Positions 31,481 to 50,018 of a stretch of 50,018 bases of DNA are shown one piece after another (the first letter of the stretch is position 1; each line of letters starts with the position of its first letter). This DNA is from an uncultured Methanomicrobiales archaeon. GTDB lineage: Archaea > Halobacteriota > Methanomicrobia > Methanomicrobiales > Methanospirillaceae. The translations under genes and the position numbers were made by a program. Below the pieces are notes generated by a model that did not search any database, was not told where the DNA came from, and worked only from the letters and a program-made list of their open reading frames with translations. Location: positions 1 through 50,018 of the forward strand of contig CAIYHQ010000101.1 of the NCBI GenBank assembly GCA_903926075.1, written 5' to 3'.

Positions 31481-34400
31481 GTGGAGCAGGAAAAAAATAT
31501 AGTTAATGAAATCCTGTATCTTCTTAAAAATACAGACCGGCCCCTTAACATTTCTGAAATCGCAATAGCGCTTAATCATGGGAGGCATACCATTGCAAGA
31601 CATCTTGATACTCTTCTCCTGACAGGTAAGGTGTCAATGAGGCAGCATGGTCAGAAAAAAAAATTTTACCCCAGGGATAATTCTCATTCTGATAGTATTA
31701 CCACATTTTCACCATTCATCCAGATAATCTTAAAGGAAAACTACACGATAGAATGGGTGGATAAACAATTTGCGAATATATTAGGTATGACAAGAGAATT
31801 ACTTGTGGGAAAATTAATAGATTCAATTCAGACTGATGTTTTCAATATTGAATCAATAACCAATCACATAAAACGTATTTCCAAAGGCCAATCAGTTATT
31901 TTTGAAGAAATTATAAATTATCAAGGGGAAGAATATTTTTTTGAGTTTGTCCTCGTATTCTTTCCAATTGGGAAAGGTGAACCGTATTTAATACTTACCG
32001 GCAAAGACATTACAAAGAGAACAAGACTGGAACAGGAAATTAAAAAAAGTGAAGAACGTTTTAGGGCTTTAATTAACAACATTCCAGGAATTGTATTCAG
32101 ACTCAATGTCCAGACTAAAAGTTATGTACAATTTAACGAATTATTTCATACATTGACTGGATATACGCCCGAAATTCTCATACCCGGTCTTTTCTCTCCA
32201 ATTGAATCAATAATTCTCGACGAAGATCTTGAGCAAATGACTTCTGGTTATCAACATGCAATCTCACACAAAACAAAATATGAGATTGAATACCGAATAA
32301 AAAATATTAAAGGAGAAATCATTTATTTCCAAGAGTGTGGATCTCCGACATATAATGATAAAGGGGTAGTGGAATTCATTGACGGTGTTATTCTCGATGT
32401 TACAAGCAGAAAAAATTGGGAGAATGAACTTTGGGAGAGCGAGGAGCGTAATCGCTCCCTTATTGAGTCAATTCCAGACCTTCTTTTTCATATTTCTGCT
32501 GATGGAAAAATTCTTGACAGCCAGTTCAATAGAAAAGAATTATTGCTCCTCTCCCCCGAACAGTTTCTAGGTAAAAAAGTAGAAGAAACCCTTCCTAATT
32601 ACCTTTCAGCTTTAACGAGGATTAAAATTAAAGAAACACTTGAAAGCAGGAAATTGCAGATGTATGAATATTCGCTGACCCTGGAGGGCGAATTATTTTA
32701 TTTTGAAACACGAATGATACCTTACAAGGGGAACACCGTGATGGCTATTGTTCGTGACATCACCCCTAAAAAAAATTTAGAACTTGCATTACTTGAGAGC
32801 GAAGCGAAATATCGTTCCATATTTAATAATGCAGTAATGGGGATTTACCGGGTCCGTGAAGGAAGATTTTTATCTGCCAACACCCATGCTGCACAAATCC
32901 TGGGTTATTCATCAGCCGAGGAACTTATTGAGTCGATAACTGATATCGATACGCAAATCTACGCTGACCCAAAAGCAAGACAAATATCAAAACTTATTTT
33001 ACTAAAAGACGGAATCCTGGAAAATTTTGAAACTCCCTGCCTCCATAAAGACGGTTCAATAGTATGGGTTTCATTTAATGCGAGGCTTGTTCGTGATGCA
33101 GAAGGTAACATTTTGTATCATGAAGGTACAAGCCACGATATTAATGAACGTAAAAGAGCCGAAGAAAAAATAATGATCCGTGAAAGAGAATTTATGGAAC
33201 TTGTTGAATTTTCAGTTATTGGTATCTGTAAAATTGCGGCAAACGGAGATATCATTAGTGCAAATGACACCGCAGCACATATTTTAGGCTATAGTTCGTC
33301 CGAGGAATTTATCCAGTCAATAAAAGATGTCAGTACACAACTATATGCGAACCCTGAACAACGAATTGATCTTCTCCGTAAAATCGAAGAAAACGATACT
33401 ATTCAGAACTACAAGATTCCGTCACGGCATAAAGATGGCAGTGTTGTTTCTTGTTCTATAGATATGAAAGTAATTCGGGATAACAAAGGCAATGTCCTTC
33501 ATAAACTTGCATATATTAAGGATATAACAGAACAGGAACTAGCAGAACAGCAATTAAAGGAAAGTGAAGAAAAATATCATAGCCTGTATCAAAATGCAAA
33601 TCTCGGTATTTTCCATTCTAACTTTGATGGAAAACTTACCGATGTAAACCCAGCTCTTGCTAAGATGTTTGGATATAATTCTCCTGAAGAAATGATAACC
33701 TCTATCACAAACATCTCCCAGCAGATCTATTATGAAGCTCCTGAATATGACGTGGTTGCAACCTCCGTATTAAATAATGGAGGATCCATTGAGATAGAAA
33801 ACCGCTATCGTCGCAAAGATGGTACTCTATTACACGGAAAACTGCATTTGCGTATTGTCCCTGATAATCAGGGCAAGCCCAGCCATTACGAAGGGTTTGT
33901 TGAGGATGTCACCGAATCCAGACTATCCGAAGAAGCACTCCGAAAGAGCGAGGAAAAATATCGCACATTGGCGAATTACACTTATGACTGGGAATTCTGG
34001 ATTACTCCTGATGGAAACTATAATTATGTCTCTCCATCCTGTGAAAGAATCACTGGTTATAGTCCTCTAGAGTTTATTCTCGATCCAGATCTCCTGATTA
34101 AAATAACGCATAAAGATGACCGGGACAAAATTGTTTGCCACTTGTCTTCCAAAGAGGTAAATAATATAGAGCATAGCGCTCTTGAATTTCGGATCATAAC
34201 CAAAAACGGGGAAGAACGTTGGATAAGTCATGTATGTCAGCCTATATACAATACTAATGGAGAATACTGCGGGAATCGTGGCAGCAATCGCGACATCACC
34301 GGGCGCAAACGGGCGGAAGAAGTATTGCAGGAGAGTGAAGAGAAACTTAATGCCATGCTGGAATCGATCGCAGATCACATGAGCATGATGGATAAAGATC

Positions 34401-35314
34401 TGAACATTATCTGGGCTAATGAAACGGCCAAAAGATATTTTGGGAAAGACCTCGTTGGCAGAAAGTGTTACGAAGCGTTTCACCAACGACAAAATCCCTG
34501 CGAACCGTGTATAACACTCATGGCATTTCAGGATGGAGAGATTCACAGGCATGAGACCAGCGTGATTGACATACACGGTCAGAGAAAATTTTTCGAATGT
34601 TCAGCAAATGTAGCATTGAAAGACGAAAATTGTAAACCAATTGGAGTGTTGGAGATCTCTAGGGATATCACCGAAAATAAACAAGGGGGGGAATTACTTC
34701 GCCAGGCAAACAAAAAGCTCTCCCTCCTCTCCGGGATTACTCGTCACGATATTAACAATAAGCTGATGGTAATGAATGGGTTACTTAACCTCATGGAAAA
34801 TGAGCAATTAGATCCAATACTTAATGAGTACTTAGATAAACTCTCCACCACAGCTAACAGGATTTCTGACATGATCAAGTTCACGAAAGAATACGAGCAG
34901 ATCGGCATTAATGCCCCATCTTGGCAGGAATGCCACAAAATCGTGGATAATGCTGCAAAGCAAGTCCTGCTCGGGGAGGTCATGGTGGAAAATGATCTAC
35001 CCTTCAATGTTGAGGTATTCGCAGATATTCTAATAGAGAAGGTTTTTTACAATCTGATAGATAACGCTGTTTTTCACGGTGGGAAGATAACTACAATTCG
35101 ATTTTCTATTCAGGAATCAGGTGATAGTCAACTGATCATATGCGAGGATGATGGTGAGGGTGTACCCGCTGAAGATAAGGAGGAGATCTTTGAGCGAGGT
35201 TTTGGGAAGAACTCAGGGTTTGGATTAACCCTTGTAAGGGAGATCCTTGACATCACCGGCATCACTATTCGTGAGAACGGGGGGAACCAGGGAAAGGAGC
35301 ACGGTTTGAGATAA
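31481..35314 (+). CDS. HTH plus eight-PAS sensor histidine kinase, frameshifted at the 3' end
   Basis: 1277 residues, soluble. GTG start. N-terminal winged helix ~1-65 (LNISEIAIALNHGRHTIARHLDTLLL, basic wing), then eight PAS domains: ~75-180, 195-310, 322-430, 440-565, 567-690, 695-815, 820-945, 950-1065. The last has Cys-rich KCYEAF...NPCEPC. The H-box GITRHDINNKL has H1089, followed by HATPase with CEDDGEGVP and NSGFGLTLVREIL. After NQGKE the reading frame slips: restoring one G near 35296-35298 continues as GARFEITVPNGKWHYGSEAS to a stop at 35358, the normal family ending. So the gene has a one-base deletion, or the sequence has an error there; only the last strand of the ATPase domain is lost. 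Confidence 0.85.
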   Translation: MEQEKNIVNEILYLLKNTDRPLNISEIAIALNHGRHTIARHLDTLLLTGKVSMRQHGQKKKFYPRDNSHSDSITTFSPFIQIILKENYTIEWVDKQFANILGMTRELLVGKLIDSIQTDVFNIESITNHIKRISKGQSVIFEEIINYQGEEYFFEFVLVFFPIGKGEPYLILTGKDITKRTRLEQEIKKSEERFRALINNIPGIVFRLNVQTKSYVQFNELFHTLTGYTPEILIPGLFSPIESIILDEDLEQMTSGYQHAISHKTKYEIEYRIKNIKGEIIYFQECGSPTYNDKGVVEFIDGVILDVTSRKNWENELWESEERNRSLIESIPDLLFHISADGKILDSQFNRKELLLLSPEQFLGKKVEETLPNYLSALTRIKIKETLESRKLQMYEYSLTLEGELFYFETRMIPYKGNTVMAIVRDITPKKNLELALLESEAKYRSIFNNAVMGIYRVREGRFLSANTHAAQILGYSSAEELIESITDIDTQIYADPKARQISKLILLKDGILENFETPCLHKDGSIVWVSFNARLVRDAEGNILYHEGTSHDINERKRAEEKIMIREREFMELVEFSVIGICKIAANGDIISANDTAAHILGYSSSEEFIQSIKDVSTQLYANPEQRIDLLRKIEENDTIQNYKIPSRHKDGSVVSCSIDMKVIRDNKGNVLHKLAYIKDITEQELAEQQLKESEEKYHSLYQNANLGIFHSNFDGKLTDVNPALAKMFGYNSPEEMITSITNISQQIYYEAPEYDVVATSVLNNGGSIEIENRYRRKDGTLLHGKLHLRIVPDNQGKPSHYEGFVEDVTESRLSEEALRKSEEKYRTLANYTYDWEFWITPDGNYNYVSPSCERITGYSPLEFILDPDLLIKITHKDDRDKIVCHLSSKEVNNIEHSALEFRIITKNGEERWISHVCQPIYNTNGEYCGNRGSNRDITGRKRAEEVLQESEEKLNAMLESIADHMSMMDKDLNIIWANETAKRYFGKDLVGRKCYEAFHQRQNPCEPCITLMAFQDGEIHRHETSVIDIHGQRKFFECSANVALKDENCKPIGVLEISRDITENKQGGELLRQANKKLSLLSGITRHDINNKLMVMNGLLNLMENEQLDPILNEYLDKLSTTANRISDMIKFTKEYEQIGINAPSWQECHKIVDNAAKQVLLGEVMVENDLPFNVEVFADILIEKVFYNLIDNAVFHGGKITTIRFSIQESGDSQLIICEDDGEGVPAEDKEEIFERGFGKNSGFGLTLVREILDITGITIRENGGNQGKEHGLR

Positions 35315-35596: not shown

Positions 35597-38500
35597 TTAT
35601 TGCGTCCCCATCTCTATAAGGATGGAATCAAGTCTTTTTATCTTTTCTGAAAGTATCCTTATGAATGCCAGTGCAATATCAGGGTCTTCTTTTATAAATG
35701 TGGTAAGGTCCCTGGAATTTATTGTGTAAAGATAGAGATCTTCAAATGCCTCTACCGTTGTATATGCATCTGAAGTGGTAATACATTCTTCTCCACTAAT
35801 GTCGCCAGGGCCAAGGATGCGAATTGTCCCGGTCCATCCATCAATTGAATGCTTGTACATTTCTGCAAACCCGTTTACGTGGAGAGTTAATTCTTGTACT
35901 GGATTATTTTCTTTTTGGATGGTGTCCCCGGATTTTACAGCAACCGGGACAACAAGCCTTGCAAGGTTCAGGAGGTAATTTTCACTAATGGTACTAAAAG
36001 AAGGGATACTGGCAAGGAACCTGATTCGTTCAGTCATAGCCTTTGTGACAAATTTATTCATCATTGCTGGTTTTGGTACTGACCATGACAGATCGCAGTT
36101 AGAAAGAAGTTCTGAACTAATATCTGAACTCACAATGAATGAAGTACTTCGTACTTCCTGGAGAAGATCGCTCCAGCCCAGATGGAGGAACAGACGGTCA
36201 ATATATTCTGAAAACCCATAAAAACCATATAATTCTGCAATTATATCGATAAACTCAGAAAAAGAAGATCTTCGTAATCTAATGCCAAGGGCCGGGTCAC
36301 TAAGTAGATCTGATAGATGGGCAACATTTGGATTAACAAGGTGAATGGTATGGAATAGAGGGTTGTCCAGTATCTTTCTATTAAAAAGAGAGATAAGATT
36401 TTTACTTGTCTCGTTCACAAATGAAAAGTTTCTCTCATCATACTGGACAGGTACAAGACCAAGATTGATGTAAGCCCGGACCTGCTGGAAAAAGGCATTA
36501 TCTTCTACATTATGCTGAAAATCTCCGGTTTGTGAATCAAATGTGATATTTCCTGCTCTGAAAACTGTTGTGTTAACCCCATCATCGCGTGCAGCATGGA
36601 CAAGTTTCTCTGCTTCAAATTTACTAAGGACATAGGGATTAGTAATTTCCTGTCCAACATCGAAAGTAAATTCAGAGAAAAATATTGAATCCCTATCTGA
36701 AACTATTCCACTGCCAACCGATATTGTAGAAATATAATTAAAGTCTTTAATCTTTTGTAATTTACAGAATTTCAGGAGTTGACTAGTACTCGTAACATTT
36801 GCCTCATAAAAGTCCTGGTAGTCACCAATATGTTTTGTTAATGCTGCGGAATGAATTACAGCGTCAACTGAACATACAAGTTTTTCATAAATCTCTTTTG
36901 ATATGCCCAGGCTTTCCTTTGTCAGATCACCCGCGTATACGGTTACCCGGTTTACAAAGTTTAATAGAAATTCTTCTCCGAAGGTCGCTACCATCCTTTT
37001 TCTGACCCTTTTTATTGCATCCGGGTCATCAGAAGCTCTGGCTATAAGAATAACTGAATAATCTGTCGTTGTAAGCAAGTCACGAAGGAGGTACCCGCCC
37101 AGTGTTCCGGTTACACCGGTTAGTAGTACAGTTCGGTAGTTTCGTCTGGCAGTATAATTAAATGACTCCCATTTTGTATTTTTGTTAATCTTATAGTATT
37201 CTTCCTTTTCCCGGGACACCTCAAAATCCGCCTCTGGAGATATAACGAGGTCTTTAAGGAGTTTTATTCGTTCATTAAACTTAGTCTTACTTGGTTTAAG
37301 GTGGATTGCCTGATCTGCTATCGTCCTATATTCAAATATATCAGATATTGTAACTTCAAAATATTTCTCAAGTTCAACAAGAAGACTAATGGCCCGCAAA
37401 GAATCTGCACCGAGTTCAAAAAAATCGTCAAATATAGATACAAATGGTTCTTTCAGAACTTTCACCCACAATTTAGCAATAAGTTGTTCGGTTTTATTCC
37501 TGGGGGGTTCTTGTTTTCCATGGCAGGATATATGTGTGGGGTCAGGCATTTCAAACGCATGGCGGTCTATTTTCCCATTCCTGTTCAATGGGAACTCAGG
37601 TATATGGACAAACCTTGCAGGGACCATATATTCGGGAATCCGTGTATGCAGGTAAGATCTCAGATCTGATTCGCGTATTGGCTCATCGGCCTCATAATAG
37701 CCACATAAATATTTACCTCCGCCTGAATCATCCCATGCAAGTACTACTGCATTTTTCACTCCATTGATATCTCTCAATGCAGATTCAATCTCTCCGGGTT
37801 CAATTCTGTAACCCCTTATCTTTACCTGGAAATCAATCCTTCCTATAAATTCAAGGCAACCGTCAGAATGGATTCTAACCCGGTCACCAGTACGATACAT
37901 GCGTCCTCCAGGGACAAATGGGTCATTTAGAAACTTTTCTTCAGTTAATTCCGGTCTGTTCCGGTATCCCCTGGCAACACCTTCACCTGCAATATAAAGT
38001 TCTCCAGGAATTCCCAGGGGTACGAGGTTCATCTTTCCATCAAGAACATAGATGCGGGTATTTGCAATTGGGCGTCCAATTGAAGGATTTGTAATAACAG
38101 AACTTATTTCGATGCTTGTTGACGCCATCGTGGTTTCAGATGGTCCGTACTCATTCACTAACTGGTAATTGCCGATTTTATATTTTTTTAACCTGTCTCC
38201 ACCTACGACAAGTCGTTTAAGTTTCCTGTTCTTTGAGACCTCAATAAATTGTTCGGCAAACTGTGTAGGAAAGTGAGCATGGGTGATATTTTGCTCTTCA
38301 AAATATAAATCTAGTTCCTGAGGAGAAAACCTGAGTGTATCAGGGATGATATGGAGTTCTGCTCCAGTTATAAGCGGAGCAAAAATCTGGACTACAGAAA
38401 CGTCAAATGTAAATGAGGCAAACTCTGCACAATTGCTGTCAGAGCCAATCTGGTGCTGTTTAGTGTACCATGAAATAAAATTCACCATCGAATGGTGCTC

Positions 38501-41500
38501 TATCATCACTCCTTTAGGTGTTCCCGTCGAACCTGATGTATAGACAATATATGCCAGATCATTAGGGAAAGGAGTAACCCAGGTTGAAATTCTTTTTAAA
38601 TTGGCGGTTTCCTGACTTAATCTGTCAATAGAGATGTAACATCCATAGTAAAGGTCTTTTTTGGTCTGCAGTGCAGCTTCTTTCCCTATTAAAATCGTTG
38701 CACCTGTATCTCCAAGTATAAACTTAATCCTCTCTTCTGGGTACAGTGGGTCAATTGCTACATATGCAACCCCTGCACGGAGTGCACCAACCATTGCAGC
38801 GATTGTAAGGTAAGACCTCTCTGCAATGATAGCAACAATAAGGTCGGTCTTATCGGAAATATTCCGAATTTTATCCTGAATTTCTCCAGCAATTTGAGCT
38901 GAAATTCTTTCAAGTTCACGATATGATATACTTCCGTCCTCTGCAATAACTGCCTGATATTCAGGATATGCCTGACAAATCGCTGATATTGCTGACGCTA
39001 TTGTTCTATAGGCAGGACGCGGAGTGTTTGTGTCATTGATAGTATTCAATAGAAAATTGCGTTCTTCGTCATCTATTATCGTATATTCTATAATTTTTTT
39101 ATGAGGATCCTCTGTAATTGAACGGAGAAGAGAAAGGAGATGGATTTCTAACAAGCGGATAGTCTCGTCCCTGAAGAGTGATGATCTGTAGTCTATCCTT
39201 ATAATAAGGTTATTTTGCTCTTCCCTGATAGTGATGCTGATATCAAATTTTACCCTTTGAAGGTCATACAAACGTCGTTTTGTCGTGAGACCGGGAACAT
39301 TAAAAGTTTCCATTTCCATGTTCTGAACGATAATATTCAGGTCAATCAATGGATGGCGTCCTACCCCACGATTTTCTGTTACCTTACTATATACACTGGC
39401 AGATGGAAATGGTTCATGGTCATAAAGATCAAAAAGGTCATCCCTGAAGTGCTGGAGGTACGAAAAAAAGGTCTTATCAGGAGAGAAGCGACTTCTTACC
39501 GGTATTGTTTCAACAAACATCCCGACGACAGATTCTGAACCTTCAGGTCCTCTTCCGTTTGTTGTCGTACCAACTACTACATCGTCTTTCTGGGTATATT
39601 TCGAATATAAAAGACTTATAATTCCAGTTAAGGCAGAGTGAAGTGTTGTACTGGATTTATTCACGAGTTCCCGTAGCGATTGAGTTAAATCAGAATCCAG
39701 GACAAATTCTCGAGAACTTCCGATAAAATCCGGAGTGCTGCTACGCGGGTTATCAGTGATAAATTCTCCAGGCTGATACTCATCAAGATAATTGACCCAG
39801 AATGAAACGTTCTTCTCAAGTAATCCCTCGTGTTCAAGTCCCTTCACCCAGGTGGTGTAATCCTTAAACTGGAAAGAAGGGGGCTTCAATTCAGTCCCGG
39901 CATATAGCAGTGAGAGGTCTTTAAGAATTATAGAGATTGAAATTCCATCAGATATTATATGGTGGATATCCAGTAGAAGGATAGCTTGTTCAGGTGCCAA
40001 TTGAAGCAGTTTAGCCTTAAATAAAGGAGATTTACTGAGGTCAAACTTAGAAAAAAAGGATTTTATTGCATTTTCTGTTTCACTTGGACTGACCTCTTCA
40101 TATGTAAGTCGTATTTTCCCTTCACTATCGATAACCTGGACAGGTTCTCCGTTATCAATTGCAAATCTTGTCCTAAGTGCCTCGTGTCTTTCAATAAGAC
40201 TGATAATTGATTTAGCCAACCGTTTTTTATCAAGCTGACCCTGGATATCGATTACTATCGGAATATTATAAGTGGTTCCAATCGTTGGAATTTTTTCAAG
40301 CATGAATAATTGTTTTTGTGACTCTGTTACTGGGTATACATCGGCTTGTTTTGCCGGCACAATAGGTGGAAACACCGGATGTTCTGTTTTTGCAAGAATT
40401 AAAGCAAGACCCCGCGGAGTTTTTAATCTGAAAAAGTCCCTGAGTGGTATGTCACAAGAAAAAAGTCGTTCTAGCTTTGCAATTAAGAGAGCTGCCTTGA
40501 TGGAGTCGCCGCCAATAGAAAAAAAGTCATCTTCAACTCCAACAGGCTTAATTAGAAGTACTTCTTCAAAAGCATTGACTATCTGCTTTTCCTCTACACT
40601 TATAGGAGGGAGGTATTCTCCCCGAACTCGCGTAATATCAGGGTGTGGAAGTTTTTTCCGGTCAATTTTACCGTTTGGGTTTATGGGAAGGTTTTCGAGT
40701 TTTATGAACTGACCCGGAATCATAAATTCCGGAAGTCTTGTTTTCAGGAAATCTGTAATTATCTTATTTTCAAGAGGAGCTCCTGAAGTATAATAACCGC
40801 ATAAAGTTACCCTGCCCAGTTCATCTTTGATATCTATTACTGCCGCTTCAGAAATACCAGGGACTAGGAGGAGAACTTTTTCAACTTCACCAATTTCTAT
40901 CCTGAAACCACGGATTTTAACCTGGCGGTCCATCCTCCCCATATACAGGAGTGAACCGTCTTGTGTCCAGCATGCAAGGTCACCAGTTCTGTATAACCGT
41001 TCTCCGGGAACTACAGGATTATCTGTAAATGCCTGGTTTGTTTTTTCAGCGAGGTTAAGATATCCTCGTGCTAGGCAAGTGCCTGCGATACAGAGTTCTC
41101 CCGCTGCACCAACCGGCTGAAGATTATTCCACCTGTCAAGGATATAAATCCGGCAATTATGAATTGGGTAACCAATTGGAATATTTTCAGATTCTGTCTC
41201 TACCTTTAATGCCGCAACAAGAACCGTGCATTCTGTCGGACCATATCCATTGACGAGTGAATATTTTCTTTTCTTGTAGAATCTGAGTTTCTCCCCACCT
41301 GTATGCAGTACTCTAAGTGAATTGTTGTCTGCAAATTCCATAAACTGCTCACAGAACTGGGTTGTAAAAACTCCAATGCTGATCTTATTCTCTTCATAAT
41401 ATTCATTCAGGTGTTTTAACGAGAGACGGATATCATCATCAATAAGGAATAGTGTGGCTCCCATTATAAGTGTAGGAAAGATTTCAGGTATAGAACTGTC

Positions 41501-43450
41501 AAAACTGAAACTAGCGTGTTTTGCAACATGATCAGCATCCGTGATTTCAGTATACTCAATAAACCAGTGACAAAAATTAACAATAGAGCGGTGCTCAAGT
41601 TGTACCCCTTTTGGGTTTCCTGTTGAACCAGAGGTATAGAGAATGATTGCAAGGTCTGATGGAGAACCCCTCGCTGTATCTCGCGTATATTGGCCGCTAA
41701 ATGTCTCTTTTAATGTGAGATCAATAACAAACGAAACATTAATTGAATTTTCTTTAATGAATGATATAAACCTTGGATTTGAAAGAATAATAGGGCAGGA
41801 ACTGTCCTTTAGAATATACCGGATACGTTCAGCAGGATAATTTGGATCGATAGGAAGAATTACAGCACCTGATTTGAGGATTGCAAGTTGGGCAATGATT
41901 AGGAATGGAGACCGGTCTGCGAGAATTGCAATAAAAACGTCCCGTCCCGCACCATGTTGTACGAGTTTCTCTGCTAAAATTGATGACATTTTGTCAACTT
42001 CAGAATAACTAAATCGGGTATTCTGGTATACAAGTGCGATATTGTCAGGCTGCCGGATTGCCCTTTCGTGAATAAGCTGGTGCAGAGTTGTTTCAGGATA
42101 AGAGTGATAAGTACTATTAAACTCTGAAAGAAGCTCAAACTCTTCACCCGGAGAGAGGAACCTGATTTCAGATATTTTTTTAGGCACACCAGTACAACCC
42201 TCCCTCGCTATCGCTTCAATATGTCCTATCATCCTCTCAATTTGTTTTTGCGAAAAAATGACCGGATTATACAGGACATTTAATATTATAGGGATATTAT
42301 CTCCTTTTCTTCCGGCACGACAAAAAATTGTGAGAGTATTTGCTGATTCTTCAGGGTTGTGAAAAATTGTATGAAGATTTGTACTTGTCTCTTCCGGAAT
42401 ATCCTGGACAAAAGTATAATCAATCAGATTGACACTCTCACCTGTTTGGCGTCTTTTTTCTGCAATGAGTTGCTCATATGGGAAACGTGAGTGAATTTGA
42501 GAGGATTTTAAAGTATCTGTAACCGATTGCAGGACTTCAGAGAAATTTTGTTCTGATTTGCAACTTATAAACAGTGGTACGCTTGCAACAAACATGCCCA
42601 AAACATCTAGCATCTCCTCCGGATACCGGTTCGCAAAAGCAGTCCCGATTATCATCTCCTCATTTCCAGTAATTCGGGAACAATAAATTGAAAAAGCAGA
42701 GAGAAGAATACGGAATGGTGAAACTCTCTCTTTTTCGCCGTATGAATAGACAATATCAGCTAATTCGGGGGAGATCTGGAAAACAAGTCGTTTCCGGTCA
42801 ATATTTTCAGAATGACGAAATGCAAGGTCGACTAGTTCAGGGATATTTTGGGTTTTCTCTAACCAGAACGTTTTGTCTTTTTCGTATTCGGGTGAATTAA
42901 GATACTTCTCTTCATGGCTAACAAAATCTAAAAAATTGTGGGATGGAAAAACAGGGAGAGGTTTTCCTGAAGCAATTGCCTGTAAAGTCTTGCTAAGGCG
43001 AGAAGTTAATAATAAAAATGATGAGCCGTCAAAAATAATGTGATGGGTATTTATAAAGATTGAATGCTCGAGTGGTCCGGTTTCTGCAATATAAACCCGA
43101 CAGAGTGGTCCACCATTAATCATCTCAAATGGCTTATTAGATTCTTTCTTTACCCACTCCTGATATGCACTTTCACCGCCTTCATGTCTGAATTTTAAAA
43201 ATTCTATTGCGATTTGCTCATCTGAAAAAAACAGGACTGGTGTTCCATTCTCAATTGCAATACGCAGAGAAAGCGTTTTTTCGTGTTTCAGGATATATTT
43301 CAGACTGGATTTTATAACCTCGTATGAATACAATTGTTCAAGTTGAACGGTCCTTGGAACGTTCCACATTGCAGTCCCTGGGTTCATGCACTCAACAAGA
43401 TAGATACGTTGTTGGGCATGATTTAATGGAAATAAAGTTTTTTTCATCAT
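35597..43450 (-). CDS. Two-module NRPS with reductase and C-terminal cNMP-binding-type domain
   Basis: A 2617-residue nonribosomal peptide synthetase. Order: C1 (~1-440, HHIIFDG ~139); A1 (~450-935, YTSGSTGNPKG ~606, NGKIDR ~930); T1 (GGDS, S983); C2 (~1040-1470, HHIISDG ~1162); A2 (~1478-1965, YTSGSTGTPKG ~1640); T2 (GADS, S2017); thioester reductase (~2105-2480, TGVTGTLGG, Y2273/K2277 in YVLSK); then ~2497-2617, a Crp/cyclic-nucleotide-binding-like domain (VKSGDTIQKENN, GPGDISGEE, late helix LSEKIKRLDSIL). All core motifs are intact. By family knowledge a reductase end releases a peptide aldehyde or alcohol, and a leading C domain suggests an acyl or peptidyl starter. Fusion to a Crp-like domain is unusual. 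ATG 43450 follows GGGAG. The MFS gene precedes it in the operon; no phosphopantetheinyl transferase is in the window. Confidence 0.92.
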   Translation of the reverse strand: MMKKTLFPLNHAQQRIYLVECMNPGTAMWNVPRTVQLEQLYSYEVIKSSLKYILKHEKTLSLRIAIENGTPVLFFSDEQIAIEFLKFRHEGGESAYQEWVKKESNKPFEMINGGPLCRVYIAETGPLEHSIFINTHHIIFDGSSFLLLTSRLSKTLQAIASGKPLPVFPSHNFLDFVSHEEKYLNSPEYEKDKTFWLEKTQNIPELVDLAFRHSENIDRKRLVFQISPELADIVYSYGEKERVSPFRILLSAFSIYCSRITGNEEMIIGTAFANRYPEEMLDVLGMFVASVPLFISCKSEQNFSEVLQSVTDTLKSSQIHSRFPYEQLIAEKRRQTGESVNLIDYTFVQDIPEETSTNLHTIFHNPEESANTLTIFCRAGRKGDNIPIILNVLYNPVIFSQKQIERMIGHIEAIAREGCTGVPKKISEIRFLSPGEEFELLSEFNSTYHSYPETTLHQLIHERAIRQPDNIALVYQNTRFSYSEVDKMSSILAEKLVQHGAGRDVFIAILADRSPFLIIAQLAILKSGAVILPIDPNYPAERIRYILKDSSCPIILSNPRFISFIKENSINVSFVIDLTLKETFSGQYTRDTARGSPSDLAIILYTSGSTGNPKGVQLEHRSIVNFCHWFIEYTEITDADHVAKHASFSFDSSIPEIFPTLIMGATLFLIDDDIRLSLKHLNEYYEENKISIGVFTTQFCEQFMEFADNNSLRVLHTGGEKLRFYKKRKYSLVNGYGPTECTVLVAALKVETESENIPIGYPIHNCRIYILDRWNNLQPVGAAGELCIAGTCLARGYLNLAEKTNQAFTDNPVVPGERLYRTGDLACWTQDGSLLYMGRMDRQVKIRGFRIEIGEVEKVLLLVPGISEAAVIDIKDELGRVTLCGYYTSGAPLENKIITDFLKTRLPEFMIPGQFIKLENLPINPNGKIDRKKLPHPDITRVRGEYLPPISVEEKQIVNAFEEVLLIKPVGVEDDFFSIGGDSIKAALLIAKLERLFSCDIPLRDFFRLKTPRGLALILAKTEHPVFPPIVPAKQADVYPVTESQKQLFMLEKIPTIGTTYNIPIVIDIQGQLDKKRLAKSIISLIERHEALRTRFAIDNGEPVQVIDSEGKIRLTYEEVSPSETENAIKSFFSKFDLSKSPLFKAKLLQLAPEQAILLLDIHHIISDGISISIILKDLSLLYAGTELKPPSFQFKDYTTWVKGLEHEGLLEKNVSFWVNYLDEYQPGEFITDNPRSSTPDFIGSSREFVLDSDLTQSLRELVNKSSTTLHSALTGIISLLYSKYTQKDDVVVGTTTNGRGPEGSESVVGMFVETIPVRSRFSPDKTFFSYLQHFRDDLFDLYDHEPFPSASVYSKVTENRGVGRHPLIDLNIIVQNMEMETFNVPGLTTKRRLYDLQRVKFDISITIREEQNNLIIRIDYRSSLFRDETIRLLEIHLLSLLRSITEDPHKKIIEYTIIDDEERNFLLNTINDTNTPRPAYRTIASAISAICQAYPEYQAVIAEDGSISYRELERISAQIAGEIQDKIRNISDKTDLIVAIIAERSYLTIAAMVGALRAGVAYVAIDPLYPEERIKFILGDTGATILIGKEAALQTKKDLYYGCYISIDRLSQETANLKRISTWVTPFPNDLAYIVYTSGSTGTPKGVMIEHHSMVNFISWYTKQHQIGSDSNCAEFASFTFDVSVVQIFAPLITGAELHIIPDTLRFSPQELDLYFEEQNITHAHFPTQFAEQFIEVSKNRKLKRLVVGGDRLKKYKIGNYQLVNEYGPSETTMASTSIEISSVITNPSIGRPIANTRIYVLDGKMNLVPLGIPGELYIAGEGVARGYRNRPELTEEKFLNDPFVPGGRMYRTGDRVRIHSDGCLEFIGRIDFQVKIRGYRIEPGEIESALRDINGVKNAVVLAWDDSGGGKYLCGYYEADEPIRESDLRSYLHTRIPEYMVPARFVHIPEFPLNRNGKIDRHAFEMPDPTHISCHGKQEPPRNKTEQLIAKLWVKVLKEPFVSIFDDFFELGADSLRAISLLVELEKYFEVTISDIFEYRTIADQAIHLKPSKTKFNERIKLLKDLVISPEADFEVSREKEEYYKINKNTKWESFNYTARRNYRTVLLTGVTGTLGGYLLRDLLTTTDYSVILIARASDDPDAIKRVRKRMVATFGEEFLLNFVNRVTVYAGDLTKESLGISKEIYEKLVCSVDAVIHSAALTKHIGDYQDFYEANVTSTSQLLKFCKLQKIKDFNYISTISVGSGIVSDRDSIFFSEFTFDVGQEITNPYVLSKFEAEKLVHAARDDGVNTTVFRAGNITFDSQTGDFQHNVEDNAFFQQVRAYINLGLVPVQYDERNFSFVNETSKNLISLFNRKILDNPLFHTIHLVNPNVAHLSDLLSDPALGIRLRRSSFSEFIDIIAELYGFYGFSEYIDRLFLHLGWSDLLQEVRSTSFIVSSDISSELLSNCDLSWSVPKPAMMNKFVTKAMTERIRFLASIPSFSTISENYLLNLARLVVPVAVKSGDTIQKENNPVQELTLHVNGFAEMYKHSIDGWTGTIRILGPGDISGEECITTSDAYTTVEAFEDLYLYTINSRDLTTFIKEDPDIALAFIRILSEKIKRLDSILIEMGTQ

Positions 43451-43510
43451 CAATCTCCCGCGATTAATTAATTACGTCCAGATACCCGTTTTTTACTAAT
43501 CGAAATAAGG

Positions 43511-44908
43511 TTATGATCGTGTTGTAATTTGCTTTTCTTTTGCAATGATGCATGTGAAGAGTCCTAAAATGGCACATATGCAAACAGCAGTCATGGCTAA
43601 ATTAAAATTGGCTGAAAATGTGCTAATCTGGGTTAAATCATTCATATCCTGTCCTGAAGTACCGAAAGATAATATTAAAGCAAATATGCTTATCCCCAAA
43701 ATCCCTCCAATCTGTGAAACCAGTGTTTTTATGGCTGATATTGTCCCGGCATTTGCAATTTTTGCCCTGTTCATAATAAATGCAAGACTTGCAGGTACAA
43801 AGAGTGCTATACCTATCCCAAATAATAGAAAAGAACCGATTATGTAGATATATGTTGTCGAGGCATTAAATCCAAGAAATGAAAGACTTGCAAAGAAACA
43901 AAAGATCATCCCGATAATGCACGGTACCCTTGGATTTGTCTTGTCAGAGAGCCAGCCTGAAACATAAACGAGGCAGATGCTAACAACAGGAGGGATTGCA
44001 AGAAACAATCCGGCTGTTGAAACTGACATACCCTGTATGTTTATGAAAAAAAACGGAAAAAGGAAACTGGTACCCGCGAGTATAATCATATAGAAAAAAA
44101 ATGCAAGAAGGGCGAGATTTAAAATCCGGTCACGAAACACACTAAAATCCAGGAGTGGATGCTTTACCTGGCGTTCACGAATCAGGAAGAGTACAGGTGA
44201 AATAATAGTAATAAGGCATGAAATAAAAAATATCCTGGAATCTTCAGGGCTTGATAGCATGTGAAGAGTGTAAGTTAGTGAACTGAGCATTATTATACTG
44301 AGAAGAACACCAACCCAGTCAATGCTCGCTCCCTGCACTCTTGGATATGGTTTTGTAAGTATTGCACGTGAAATGAGTATACCTATAATTCCGATTGGTA
44401 TATTAACAAAAAAGATCCAGGACCACCCCAGAGTTTCCTGAATAAATCCGCCAATAGGGGATCCTATTGCAAATCCTATCACTGCAAAAAGTCCGTTTAT
44501 CCCATAAGCTCTGCCTCTCCAGTCTTCAGGGATATACCTGATTATAATAACTGCAGAAGTTGAAAAGAGCATTGAAGCTCCTATTCCCTGGATAAACCTG
44601 AAAAGTACTATCTCATAAAGAGACTGGGAGAAGCCACAAAAAAAAGAACCTATTATAAATATTCCGTATCCCGCAGTAAGAAGTGGTTCAGGGCCGAACA
44701 TATCAGAGAGTTTTCCTGATAAGAGGAGAAAAGCTGTTAAAGAAAGAAGATATGCAAGAGTAATAAGTGAAATTTCACTAATTGATGTGTCAAAAGTTTT
44801 TACAAGAGACGGAAGAATGACATTAACAATACTGACATCGATATTAACCATAAAAATAGCAAGAGCACTCGACAAAAGTACTCCCCATCTTGTAATGCGG
44901 TCATTCAT
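43511..44908 (-). CDS. MFS drug-efflux transporter (DHA2, EmrB/QacA-like)
   Basis: 465-residue major-facilitator transporter with about 14 membrane helices. The N-terminus ALAIFMVNIDVSIVNVILPSL and motif A-like GKLSDMFGPEPLL, then RFIQGIGASMLF and the motif-C-like AIGSPIGGFIQ, match the 14-helix proton-driven multidrug efflux group. It lies 60 bases upstream of the NRPS on the same strand, so the two are probably one transcript and it is the likely exporter of the NRPS product, or self-protection. Its first ~25 codons and promoter are duplicated at 46880-47132. Confidence 0.92.
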   Translation of the reverse strand: MNDRITRWGVLLSSALAIFMVNIDVSIVNVILPSLVKTFDTSISEISLITLAYLLSLTAFLLLSGKLSDMFGPEPLLTAGYGIFIIGSFFCGFSQSLYEIVLFRFIQGIGASMLFSTSAVIIIRYIPEDWRGRAYGINGLFAVIGFAIGSPIGGFIQETLGWSWIFFVNIPIGIIGILISRAILTKPYPRVQGASIDWVGVLLSIIMLSSLTYTLHMLSSPEDSRIFFISCLITIISPVLFLIRERQVKHPLLDFSVFRDRILNLALLAFFFYMIILAGTSFLFPFFFINIQGMSVSTAGLFLAIPPVVSICLVYVSGWLSDKTNPRVPCIIGMIFCFFASLSFLGFNASTTYIYIIGSFLLFGIGIALFVPASLAFIMNRAKIANAGTISAIKTLVSQIGGILGISIFALILSFGTSGQDMNDLTQISTFSANFNLAMTAVCICAILGLFTCIIAKEKQITTRS

Positions 44909-45443: not shown

Positions 45444-45674
45444 ATGAAAACTCTCAAAGGATTAAAAGGGCAGGAAGTGATAAAAGGGTTTTATAAAGCT
45501 GGAGGAGAACCTAGAAAAGGCAAAGGAGATCATATAAATATTAAAATGCCAAATGGCCAATTGATAACCATCCCCATATCTGGTGATGTGAAACTTGGAT
45601 TATTGAAGGCTGCAATACGGAAAGCAGGATTAACAGAAGTAAAATTTCTTAAATACATTGAGGACTTGTCATGA
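45444..45674 (+). CDS. hicA: HicA-type mRNA interferase toxin
   Basis: 76 residues, basic, with the HicA double-stranded-RNA-binding-like fold pattern: GQEVIKGFYKAGGEPRKGKGDHINIKMPNG, with the catalytic-type H30 in GDHINI, then ITIPISGDVKLGLLKAAIRKAGL. HicA toxins cut mRNA when not held by HicB. It overlaps hicB by four bases. The ribosome site is weak. Confidence 0.88.
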   Translation: MKTLKGLKGQEVIKGFYKAGGEPRKGKGDHINIKMPNGQLITIPISGDVKLGLLKAAIRKAGLTEVKFLKYIEDLS

Positions 45675-45901
45675 ATGAATATACTATCATAATTCATCCC
45701 GCTGAAGAAGGGGGGTTCTGGGTAGAAGTTCCGACTCTTCCTGGATGTTTCTCACAAGGCGAATCAATAGAGGAAGCTATGAATAATATCAGGGAGGCAA
45801 TAGAACTTCATATTGAGTGTCTGAAGGAAGAAGACGAGCCAGTGCCTGTAGAAAGTGATCTTATTATTAGTAGAATTCAGGTTAACCCGGTTCAGGCATA
45901 A
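45671..45901 (+). CDS. hicB: HicB-type antitoxin
   Basis: 76 residues with the degenerate RNase H-like HicB fold: YTIIIHPAEEGGFWVEVPTLPGCFSQGESIEEAMNNIREAIELHIE, the standard HicB signature. The short C-terminus has no evident ribbon-helix-helix or HTH domain, so it may neutralise HicA without binding DNA, or be the short archaeal form. Toxin-first order, coupled by ATGA overlap with hicA. Confidence 0.88.
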   Translation: MNEYTIIIHPAEEGGFWVEVPTLPGCFSQGESIEEAMNNIREAIELHIECLKEEDEPVPVESDLIISRIQVNPVQA

Positions 45902-46034: not shown

Positions 46035-46880
46035 ATGAACGATATGAAATCCATTTTCATAGAAGGTGAAAATCGTCTGGTGTCATGGAAAGCAAATTTG
46101 CTTTCTGTGGCCATTGTAATGGAAAAAGCACGTAATTCTGGTTACGTGAAGCGGCTGAGAAACTTAATCCCATATATTTATTAATCATATTTGTTTTCGG
46201 TATCAGCAGCCATTCAAAGCCATCATTAGAAGAAATCTTTCGGCGGTACATAGATTTTGATGATACTCTAAATTCCAAAGATAAAATTAAGTACCAAGGT
46301 TTTTTCAACCGTTTTAATAAGGATATGGTAATATTCCTCCGCGAAATGTTAAACTATTATATTAAATTTACGTTTTCGAACTGCTCTGATAAGTTAAAAG
46401 GGCCGGTTCAGGATTTGAAAGATATTTTGATTCAGGATAGCAGTATTATTCGAGTGAGTCAAAAACTTAAAACGGAGTGGCCCGCCCTAAGATCAAATGG
46501 TAAAGCAGCTGGATTAAAAATCCATGCTGTATACAGTACTATTTCTCAATCCCTAAAATCCATTGAAATTTCAGGAGAATGAGTACATGATTCAAAAATG
46601 CTACACCAAACGTGATCAAAATTTTATCTGCATCGTCTCAAGCAAAAAAACAATTCCAAGAAGGAATGCCCTTAAACGAATTTCTCAGATAACGTCCCAA
46701 AACGGATGAGATTGATATTTTATGCACTTTTAGAACCAGGTTCAATCCCGATGGAGGTAAGATAAAAACAATCTATATGAATTTCAGAGTAGTGTGTTTT
46801 TGGGATGAAGAGACGTCTATATGGCATACTTATGTGACGAATCTTCCAAACAAAGTATATCAAGTTGAAGAAATTTACCA
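46035..46880 (+). pseudogene. Decayed IS4-family transposase
   Basis: Pieces of one transposase lie in order but in different frames. 46035-46180 gives AIVMEKARNSGYVKRLRN; a shift near 46167 leads into IFVFGISSHSKPSLEEIF, then RFNKDMVIFLREML and the first DDE aspartate in VQDLKDILIQDSSIIRVSQ-like sequence, ending at a stop at 46582. After a probable internal deletion, FYLHRLKQK appears in another frame (~46625). The last part, VVCFWDEETSIWHTYVTNLPNKVYQVEEIY (~46790-46880), matches the segment before the usual YRxRW motif, which is missing because the copy is cut at 46880 by the duplicated MFS fragment. A TATA box and a TTTGCGG/CCGCAAA hairpin (46011-46033) precede it. Non-functional. Confidence 0.8.
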
Positions 46881-46954
46881 ACATCGACATTTACTATAAA
46901 AATGGCAAGAGCACTTGACAGAAGTACTCCCCATTTTGTAATACGGTCATTCAT
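46880..46954 (-). pseudogene. 5' fragment of an MFS transporter gene
   Basis: Minus-strand reading from ATG 46954 gives MNDRITKWGVLLSSALAIF followed by IVNVDV, nearly the same as the start of the intact MFS at 44908, then runs into the transposase relic. Only ~25 codons remain. Confidence 0.85.
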
Positions 46955-47132
46955 ATTGTTCTGCCTCTTAATGGAGATGAGATCAAAATCGGGTCAAATT
47001 CTCTTTTTTGCATATTCCATGAAACAGATTCCTGTATTGTGATTTTGTTACTGGATCCATATATGGTTATTGAGATTGTTTTGGAAATTTTTTTTATTTA
47101 TTGAACTGAAATTTGAAGAGAAAAATATTGAT
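46880..47132. repeat. Direct repeat copy 2: MFS 5' end and promoter
   Basis: Partner of 44836-45087. Both copies keep the MFS start, the TATA box and the candidate operator. Between them lie the inverted-repeat element, hicAB and the IS4 relic (~1.8 kb). Confidence 0.85.
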
Positions 47133-47191
47133 TAAATAAATGTTTTATGAAATATATTGAAACTTTGTTATATAAACAGTATTAAAAAAAA

Positions 47192-50018
47192 TTAACTATT
47201 GTGGAGACCAAAATCTATCTCTGGATTATTAGGGCTATTTGATAAGTGGTCACTAGTCGGGTTATTACCAGTTGTTACAGTCCAGCCAGACGGCGGTGAA
47301 ATCGAAACTGAGTAATCAGTTTCACCATGATGGAAACAATCTGATTCGTACTTTCCATATCCATCTGTTGTGTAATGATACGTTGTATCTACTTTATGAA
47401 CGGTAATTACAATATCGACCGTGCGACTGGCAATTATAGGTTCGCCTGCATCCCATTTACCATTACTATTTAGATCATTATAGACAACACCCCAAATTCT
47501 CCCTGTAGCCGACTCTGAACAGCTGTCCGGAGCAGGTGGCGATGTAATAATAAATGTCGCTGAGTTCGATGTAGATCCACCAGGATTATGAACTGTAATT
47601 GTACCTGTTCCAGCCGAGGTCAATAAAGTAGAAGGAATTGTTGCAGTGAGTTGTGTGCCACTATTATATGTCGTTGTCAGTGCCGTTGTTCCCCAATAAA
47701 CTGTCGAACCGGATATATAATTCGTTCCGGTAACTGTCATAGTAACTGCGGAACTTCCGGCTGTAGCTGAATTCGGCGATATAGTGGTAATTGTTGGAAT
47801 TGGAGTATTAACTATGAACGTTGCTGCGCCTGATGTGGCGCCACTAGGATTTTTGACAGTAATAGAGAAAGAGCCAGCAGTTGTAAGAAGTGAAGAAGGA
47901 ACTGTGGCAGTAAGGGATGTACTGCTTCCAAAGGTTGTAGTAAGTGGAGTGTTTCCCCAGTATACCACAGCTCCGTTCACATAGTTTGTTCCAGTCACTG
48001 TCATAGAGAAACCTGCTCCGTTTTGTATAGCTGAACTTGGATTAAGGCTCGTTATCGTAGGTAGAGCATTGACTGTGAAAGTTGCTGCGCCTGATGTGGT
48101 ACCACTCGGATTTTTAACAGTAATAGAGAAAGAGCCGGCAGTTGTGAGAAGTGAAGAAGGAACTGTGGCAGTAAGGGATGTACTGCTTCCATAGGTTGTG
48201 GTAAGTGGAGTGTTTCCCCAGTATACTACAGCTCCGTTCACATAGTTTGTTCCAGTCACTGTCATAGAGAAACCTGCTCCGTTCTGTGTAGATGAACTCG
48301 GATTAAGGCTTGTTATTGTTGGATCTGGAGCATTTACCGTAAATGTTGCTGGCCCCGAAGTTCCATTATCAGGGTTTTTGACAGTAATATCGAGGGATCC
48401 GACAGTTGTGAGAAGCGTGGAAGGAACTGTAGCTGTAAGCGATGTACTGCTTCCAAAGGTTGTAGTAAGTGGAGTGTTTCCCCAGTATACCACAGCTCCA
48501 TTCACATAGTTTGTTCCAGTCACTGTCATAGAGAAACCTGCTCCGTTCTGTGTAGCTGAACTCGGATTAAGGCTTGTTATCGTCGGCACACTCTGAGCAC
48601 TTACTGTAAATGTGGCTGGCCCAGAGGTTCCATTATCAGGGTTTTTGACAGTAATATCGAGGGATCCGACAGTTGTGAGAAGTGTGGAAGGAACTGTAGC
48701 TGTAAGCGATGTACTGCTTCCAAAGGTTGTAGTAAGTGGAGTGGTTCCCCAGTATACCACAGCTCCGTTCACATAGTTTGTTCCTGTCACTGTCATAGAG
48801 AAACCTGCTCCGTTCTGTGTAGATGAACTTGGATTAAGGCTTGTTATAGTCGGTAAGGGATTTACCGTAAATGTGGCAGGTACTGAAGTTCCATTATCAG
48901 GATTTTTAACAGTAATATCGAGGGATCCGACAGTTGTGAGAAGCGTGGAAGGAACTGTAGCAGTAAGCAATGTACTGCTACCAAAGGTTGTAGTAAGTGG
49001 AGTGTTTCCCCAATATACCACCGCTCCGTTCACATAGTTTGTTCCAGTCACTGTCATAGAGAAACCTGCTCCGTTCTGTGTGGTTGAACTTGGATTAAGG
49101 CTCGTTATAGTCGGTAAGGGACTTACCGTAAATGTGGCAGGACCTGAAGTTCCATTATCAGGGTTTGTAACAGTAATATCGAATGAGCCGGAAGTGGAAA
49201 GAAGCGAAGCTGGAACTGTAGCTGTAAGCGATGTACTGCTGCCAAAGGTTGTAGTAAGTGGAGTGGTTCCCCAGTATACTTTCGCCCCATCGACAAAATT
49301 TGTACCTGTGACAACCATATCGAATGTTGGTCCATTCTGTGTTGCCGAATTTGGATTGAGGTTAGTTATTGTTGGTCCGGTTGATGAGGTTATTGTGAAT
49401 GGTAGCTGTCCTGATGATCCTCCACCTGGATTTGTAACTGAAACCTGCACTATACCTGGATTTGTAAGATAAGTCTGAGGGATTGTCACAGCTATTGAGG
49501 TGGAAGTTATCGATGTTGGGGTGAGAATAATTCCACCAAAACTGACAGTAGATCCGGGTACAAAACCAGTACCTGTGATTACCATCGTGGTGTCCGGACT
49601 TCCTGCAGGAGCCGTATTTGGATTAAGATTTCCAATGGTGAGACCTCCTGTACCACTACCACCTGCAGATCCCACTCCTCCTACATTTATCCGTGCTATC
49701 AGGATTTCCTGTGTTGCGTCAATAACACGAACTCCTATCGGATAATCGATTGTTGCTATCTCTGAATCAATGATTTTTGAAGGATTATCGACCATCCAGT
49801 AATTACCATCAGTCCCTTTGTAAATATATACTGAATCACCTGCTGCCCACCTGGTACTGTTGAACCTTGTGGGATCCGGATTTGGTGCAACCTTCCACCA
49901 GCCACCACTGGGAGTGTCTATTTCAAAGCGGACTTTTGGAGTCAGGTTTTTGCTTGCAGAAATGTTGTGGAATGTAACATCCCCCCCTCTATTAAAGACA
50001 TTTACCACATTTCCACCA
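47192..50018 (-). CDS. Very large pilin-like surface protein with eight TIG repeats (5' end outside window)
   Basis: At least 941 residues; the frame is open past the window edge, so the GTG at 50008 is not a convincing start. The visible N-terminal part (NVFNRGGDVTFHNI, RFNSTRWAAGDSVYIYKG, IGVRVIDATQEILIARI) resembles the beta domain of archaeal type IV pilin-like proteins, whose hydrophobic helix would lie beyond the edge. Eight IPT/TIG immunoglobulin-like repeats of ~87 residues follow (consensus PTITSLNPSSATQNG... and TGTNYVNGAVVYWG), then an SdrD B-like domain (GVVYNDLNSNGKWDAGEP, DGYGKYES) up to FGLHNS. No sortase signal or membrane helix at the C-terminus. Expected outside the cell as an adhesin or surface fibre, held by the pilin end. 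Confidence 0.85.
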   Translation of the reverse strand, partial: GGNVVNVFNRGGDVTFHNISASKNLTPKVRFEIDTPSGGWWKVAPNPDPTRFNSTRWAAGDSVYIYKGTDGNYWMVDNPSKIIDSEIATIDYPIGVRVIDATQEILIARINVGGVGSAGGSGTGGLTIGNLNPNTAPAGSPDTTMVITGTGFVPGSTVSFGGIILTPTSITSTSIAVTIPQTYLTNPGIVQVSVTNPGGGSSGQLPFTITSSTGPTITNLNPNSATQNGPTFDMVVTGTNFVDGAKVYWGTTPLTTTFGSSTSLTATVPASLLSTSGSFDITVTNPDNGTSGPATFTVSPLPTITSLNPSSTTQNGAGFSMTVTGTNYVNGAVVYWGNTPLTTTFGSSTLLTATVPSTLLTTVGSLDITVKNPDNGTSVPATFTVNPLPTITSLNPSSSTQNGAGFSMTVTGTNYVNGAVVYWGTTPLTTTFGSSTSLTATVPSTLLTTVGSLDITVKNPDNGTSGPATFTVSAQSVPTITSLNPSSATQNGAGFSMTVTGTNYVNGAVVYWGNTPLTTTFGSSTSLTATVPSTLLTTVGSLDITVKNPDNGTSGPATFTVNAPDPTITSLNPSSSTQNGAGFSMTVTGTNYVNGAVVYWGNTPLTTTYGSSTSLTATVPSSLLTTAGSFSITVKNPSGTTSGAATFTVNALPTITSLNPSSAIQNGAGFSMTVTGTNYVNGAVVYWGNTPLTTTFGSSTSLTATVPSSLLTTAGSFSITVKNPSGATSGAATFIVNTPIPTITTISPNSATAGSSAVTMTVTGTNYISGSTVYWGTTALTTTYNSGTQLTATIPSTLLTSAGTGTITVHNPGGSTSNSATFIITSPPAPDSCSESATGRIWGVVYNDLNSNGKWDAGEPIIASRTVDIVITVHKVDTTYHYTTDGYGKYESDCFHHGETDYSVSISPPSGWTVTTGNNPTSDHLSNSPNNPEIDFGLHNS
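47800..49080 (-). repeat. Near-identical DNA repeats coding TIG domains
   Basis: Five consecutive units recur at spacings of 261, 264, 267 and 261 bases (measured at CATAGTTTGTTCC: 47980, 48241, 48505, 48772, 49033). The differences between units are few and mostly clustered, as expected from unequal crossing-over or gene conversion. The outer repeats on either side are more diverged. Confidence 0.9.

Follow-up and report, generated by a model that had tools for sequence, protein, structure and literature searches.

The window analysed here is the whole stretch of 50,018 nucleotides from the genome of an uncultured Methanomicrobiales archaeon, a methanogen in which mcrA is present. It carries a gene for a non-ribosomal peptide synthetase (NRPS) that ends in a Crp-type CNB domain, with an efflux gene as its upstream neighbor:

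35597..43453, minus strand: NRPS gene, C-A-T-C-A-T-R-CNB, 2618 aa (open reading frame, Pfam and motifs)
42134..43441, minus strand: condensation domain 1, the first domain of the protein (PF00668; HHIIFDG intact)
40634..42133, minus strand: adenylation domain 1 (PF00501; pocket D S P V L T G V L)
40379..40603, minus strand: carrier domain 1 (PF00550; FFSIGGDSI)
39029..40363, minus strand: condensation domain 2 (PF00668; HHIISDG)
37544..39028, minus strand: adenylation domain 2 (PF00501; pocket D V V H L V E M A)
37274..37513, minus strand: carrier domain 2 (PF00550; FFELGADSL)
36044..37273, minus strand: thioester reductase (PF07993; TGVTGTLG and YVLSK intact)
35600..36043, minus strand: Crp-type CNB/CAP_ED domain with a dimerisation-type C-helix (PF00027 core 35684-35941; non-canonical phosphate-binding cassette, without arginine)
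43511..44908, minus strand: MFS (DHA2/EmrB-like) efflux gene (PF07690 and TIGR00711), directly upstream of the NRPS gene

The NRPS reading frame is uninterrupted and opens with TTG, with ATG codons immediately after it; the gene probably starts at position 43450. Pfam identifies two Condensation, two AMP-binding and two PP-binding domains, followed by NAD_binding_4 at residues 2111-2341, and the catalytic core motifs are all intact (HHIIFDG, HHIISDG, A3/A7/A10 in both adenylation domains, both carrier serines, TGVTGTLG and YVLSK). This agrees with the first-pass annotation, made from the sequence alone, which had read the gene as an intact C-A-T-C-A-T-reductase assembly line. With C/A/T modules followed by NAD_binding_4 and its Rossmann and YxxxK motifs, the protein belongs to the reductase-terminated NRPSs, and the PDB sequence matches of the reductase are MxaA (4u7w) and the AusA reductase (4f6c). 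The GC content of the gene (0.397) is near that of the window (0.412). On its other side the cassette is adjoined by large multi-PAS histidine kinases (31481-35314 and 29050-31107); the NRPS gene and the gene for the 1277-aa kinase are convergent. A probable surface protein of 938 aa, in which an SdrD_B-like domain accompanies about eight IPT/TIG repeats, is encoded at 47192-50008.

NRPSs are rare in archaea, as had been noted on first reading, but they are known there, for example mru0068 of Methanobrevibacter ruminantium (PMC2812497). For mru0068 and for swol1094 of Syntrophomonas wolfei two C-A-T modules are reported, as in the NRPS described here; the terminal domain of both is called a thioesterase in the text of that report and a thioester reductase in a figure legend. 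Their neighbors are MatE, serine phosphatases and an anti-sigma antagonist, and no CNB domain is reported for them (PMC2812497). A different archaeal reductase NRPS cluster, on contig C107 of genome G001, resembles the mru0068 neighborhood, with MatE-like and HATPase/SpoIIE-like regulators and, by eye, a PPTase-like gene. AusA, the pyrazinone-forming aureusimine/phevalin synthetase (A-T-C-A-T-R, with the AusB PPTase), likewise combines a pair of A-T modules with a reductase at its end. The AusA model NF047350 is the best NCBIfam NRPS model for our protein, although the score of 1293 bits (1472 bits for an orthologue) lies far below the equivalog cut-off of 2500. In contrast to AusA, the archaeal enzyme has an extra N-terminal condensation domain, a CNB tail, an MFS neighbor and an archaeal host.

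Given this organization, the dimodular NRPS would join two residues, and the NAD(P)H-dependent reductase would release a dipeptide aldehyde. The aldehydes that leave reductase NRPSs may go on to form pyrazinones by cyclisation (PMC7586950), and a pyrazinone-like compound could form here in the same way. Alternatively, an acyl-dipeptide aldehyde would be made if the first condensation domain N-acylates, as proposed for mru0068 (PMC2812497). Condensation domain 1 resembles CDA C1 (4jn3) and Txo1, among others, and is possibly an N-acylating starter. The closest solved relative of adenylation domain 1 is the linear gramicidin synthase LgrA. The adenylation pockets were read via motif anchors and are given as pocket residues only. 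The pocket of adenylation domain 2 is identical in all three orthologues and that of adenylation domain 1 varies among them; a reasonable guess is therefore a single product family in which one residue is fixed and the other varies. The MFS protein would then export the product.

The first-pass annotation had also recognized a cNMP-binding beta-roll and helix at the C-terminus, and profile, sequence and structure comparisons all support this assignment. The cNMP_binding profile PF00027 matches residues 2505-2590 with an E-value of 5.8e-9 and 36.2 bits, above the curated cut-off of 27.5. In sequence searches the last ~148 residues of the protein match whole Crp sensor domains including the C-helix (GlxR, E 1.6e-8, query residues 17-145 of 149). 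An AlphaFold model of the tail, built on a 26-row alignment in which most of the other rows are archaeal CNB domains, reached a pLDDT of 89 and a pTM of 0.80 and shows a CAP_ED fold, a beta-roll with flanking helices; its best PDB folds in Foldseek are GlxR and M. tuberculosis CRP (E ~1e-11, TM 0.82-0.87; 0.83-0.87 for GlxR). The tail thus belongs to the CNB/CAP_ED domains. It shares the sensor fold and C-helix of GlxR and CRP but, unlike these, is fused to an NRPS and lacks both the phosphate-binding arginine and a DNA-binding domain: the C-helix forms the very end of the NRPS, whereas Crp/Fnr regulators continue into a helix-turn-helix domain. The tail is a Crp sensor with its dimerisation helix, minus the DNA-binding domain, and it is the only CNB domain in its genome.

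Two other explanations for the fusion were rejected. The tail is not the normal C-terminus of this reductase family, as reductase NRPSs on a Paenibacillus plasmid and in the archaeal genome G001 are without it; nor is it an assembly artefact, as the fusion recurs in a separate genome, G031. The search for other NRPSs that end in this way covered 232 genomes of the order, in which full R-CNB proteins were found in the window's genome, G031 and G225, the latter two from the same methanogen family but another genus. The G031 orthologue (2612 aa) ends in the same tail (PF00027 E 1.6e-12) and is 57% identical end to end and 46% in the tail, a little below most catalytic domains (48-65%). In G225 the reductase ends in the same tail (E 7e-12), with the gene divided between two contig ends. 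Comparison of the tail between the window and G031 gave a pN of 0.36 and a pS of 0.88, with dS saturated, which indicates that the tail is held by selection.

Within the order, PF00027 matches occur in 5 of the 232 genomes, three of them representing this NRPS; the other two, G220 and G054, carry bacterial-looking genes (a kinase-CNB protein and a Crp-like regulator) that may be contaminants or recent transfers. In a sample of 394 genomes across the phylum, CNB domains are found mainly in genomes of another family, in proteins of about 500-620 aa, and none of the remaining matches for which coordinates were listed spanned both the reductase and the tail. A tblastn search of plasmids gave partial, reductase-side matches only, without any plasmid location at which 80% of the R-CNB query was matched, and with the tail alone Crp/Fnr regulators were among the annotated plasmid matches listed. 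Pattern scans of genome contigs and viral contigs returned no relatives, the patterns probably being too specific. No NRPS-CNB fusion was found in the part of the literature covered; the genomes compared were archaeal. A classification of 30 CNB families contains no fusion to an NRPS or thioester reductase and only one archaeal protein (PMC2246266). CNB and catalytic domains do occur in one chain in the mycobacterial acetyltransferase Pat (4ava) and the EAL protein Bd1971 (6hq3), both weak sequence matches to the tail. Reductase NRPSs and CNB-fused enzymes are each known already, and it is their combination that differs; the NRPS-CNB fusion is a real and conserved design that appears not to have been described previously.

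The genomic context is conserved as well. The MFS gene also lies upstream of the NRPS orthologues in G031 and G225; in G031 the gene order is MFS, NRPS-CNB and Sfp-type PPTase, and the two G225 contigs agree with the same three-gene cassette. In the window's genome the only PPTase is of the Sfp type; ancestrally it followed the NRPS gene, and it would activate the carrier domains. It lies on another contig (C23, 1873-2776 including a neighboring decayed NRPS copy), so the proposal of a self-contained make-and-export unit holds for the adjacent NRPS and MFS genes but does not extend to the PPTase. In the broken second NRPS copy, which precedes the C23 PPTase, 102 nt match the NRPS 3' end at 93% identity and 63 nt match the second adenylation region at 89%. 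The MFS gene is likewise duplicated in part: a truncated copy of its 5' portion and upstream region, 81-90% identical, lies at 46876-47137 of the window, 2045 nt upstream of the intact copy; between both copies of the MFS upstream region lies a HicA-HicB-like toxin-antitoxin pair (45444-45901, plus strand). From these remnants of both NRPS and MFS genes, the cassette was probably duplicated, after which one copy decayed; the intact copy keeps the NRPS and MFS genes, with the PPTase surviving from the site of the other.

In the genus of G031 and G225, the single-contig genome G038 keeps an 81-aa CNB fragment beside the PPTase and has lost the rest of the cassette. Together with the broken copy in the window's genome, this would fit a tail that is a functionless leftover of a gene fusion, drifting to loss. 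We consider this hardly credible, as in two genera an intact NRPS always comes with an intact, in-frame tail, in which synonymous change is saturated and the amino acids are conserved.

What the tail might bind is best approached from its phosphate-binding cassette (PBC). The PBC arginine is replaced in all four known copies (window, GEECITTSDAYTTVEA; G031, GLEAIVAANSPFSVEA; G225, GEESLVPADAYSSVEA; G038 remnant, GEEPITSANAYAEGNA) and the cassette is shorter by one residue. The GE dipeptide is retained in three of the four, whereas G031 has GLE, so the PBC glutamate is not invariant. The tail therefore lacks the canonical, arginine-bearing cassette of cAMP-binding CNB domains. No class III cyclase (PF00211) was found in the window's genome. 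It does encode one CYTH protein, a representative of the fold to which class IV adenylate cyclases belong; CYTH proteins are widespread and mostly have other activities, and its presence is no evidence for cAMP synthesis. Canonical control, with cAMP or cGMP binding to the tail and turning the synthetase on or off, has in its favor that the nearest folds and sequences are the cAMP-binding GlxR and M. tuberculosis CRP and that most copies keep the GE dipeptide. We nevertheless regard it as very unlikely, since the phosphate-coordinating arginine is lost throughout, the cassette is shortened, and the genome has neither a detected class III cyclase nor a further CNB protein. The same observations favor a non-cAMP ligand or a dimerisation role. 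Of the nucleotide or small-ligand switch suggested at first reading, the nucleotide part is accordingly weakened and the small-ligand part still fits; nothing in our analysis supports the anchoring role that had been suggested beside it.

Altered cassettes are compatible with ligand binding in other CNB families, for instance haem in CooA and the ligands of chlorophenol sensors (PMC2246266). In the trypanosomatid PKA regulatory subunit (6flo, 6hyi) the phosphate-binding arginine is replaced, as in the tail, and the CNB domains bind purine nucleosides (PMC10959531). The trypanosomatid PKA uses a glutamate at the A202 position, whereas the extra glutamate of the archaeal tails lies one position earlier, so that the two pockets may differ. 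As the CNB domain comes straight after the releasing domain, and as other CNB domains accept non-nucleotide ligands, the tail might sense the NRPS product or hold the reactive aldehyde, for feedback or for channelling towards the exporter. This seems improbable, because the varying pocket of adenylation domain 1 implies that product and sensor would need to co-vary.

The main rival is that the tail is a structural dimerisation or stability module taken from a Crp-family regulator, with no ligand and no regulation. Loss of the arginine in all copies, the variable PBC glutamate and the lower conservation of the tail relative to most catalytic domains all fit such a module. The three intact copies also keep a hydrophobic heptad stripe along the C-helix, seen in 6 of 7 a/d columns (permutation p 0.02), which is compatible with a Crp-type homodimer but could simply reflect helix packing. 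One of the best-kept stretches of the tail, on the other hand, spans the GFAE through VEAFEDL strands (GFAE..K.S.DGW.GTI..LGPGD) and is conserved beyond what a bare scaffold seems to require. We consider a purely structural role unlikely, though a stronger contender than the other alternatives above. A model of the R-CNB didomain, from four sequences only, reached a pLDDT of 39, from which no contact between CNB domain and reductase can be derived.

Our preferred reading, to which we assign a probability of roughly 0.45, is that the tail acts in cis as a dimerising and allosteric module that responds to a non-cAMP ligand and governs how the reductase releases the product, a dipeptide aldehyde or a compound of the pyrazinone type. 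The NRPS would have captured a Crp sensor domain without its DNA-binding domain, and the tail would couple release to a signal carried by a small molecule, for instance one that is hydrophobic or resembles a nucleoside, and perhaps by the product itself; dimerisation and ligand control are both predictions. More tentatively, product release may be gated by this re-purposed sensor in such a way that, with cAMP recognition lost, another intracellular ligand is read; this would amount to allosteric control by a metabolite within the assembly line itself, in a lineage that has hardly any other CNB domains.

Once primed, NRPSs are generally considered constitutively active, and their control is placed at the level of transcription. 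A sensor at the releasing end of the assembly line would, if confirmed, be a direct post-translational switch, and the NRPS-CNB arrangement could serve as a part for engineered NRPSs. It would also show a Crp sensor at work outside transcription in an order with hardly any other CNB domains, and would point to a small-molecule signal or weapon of methanogens, a group with almost no characterized non-ribosomal peptides.
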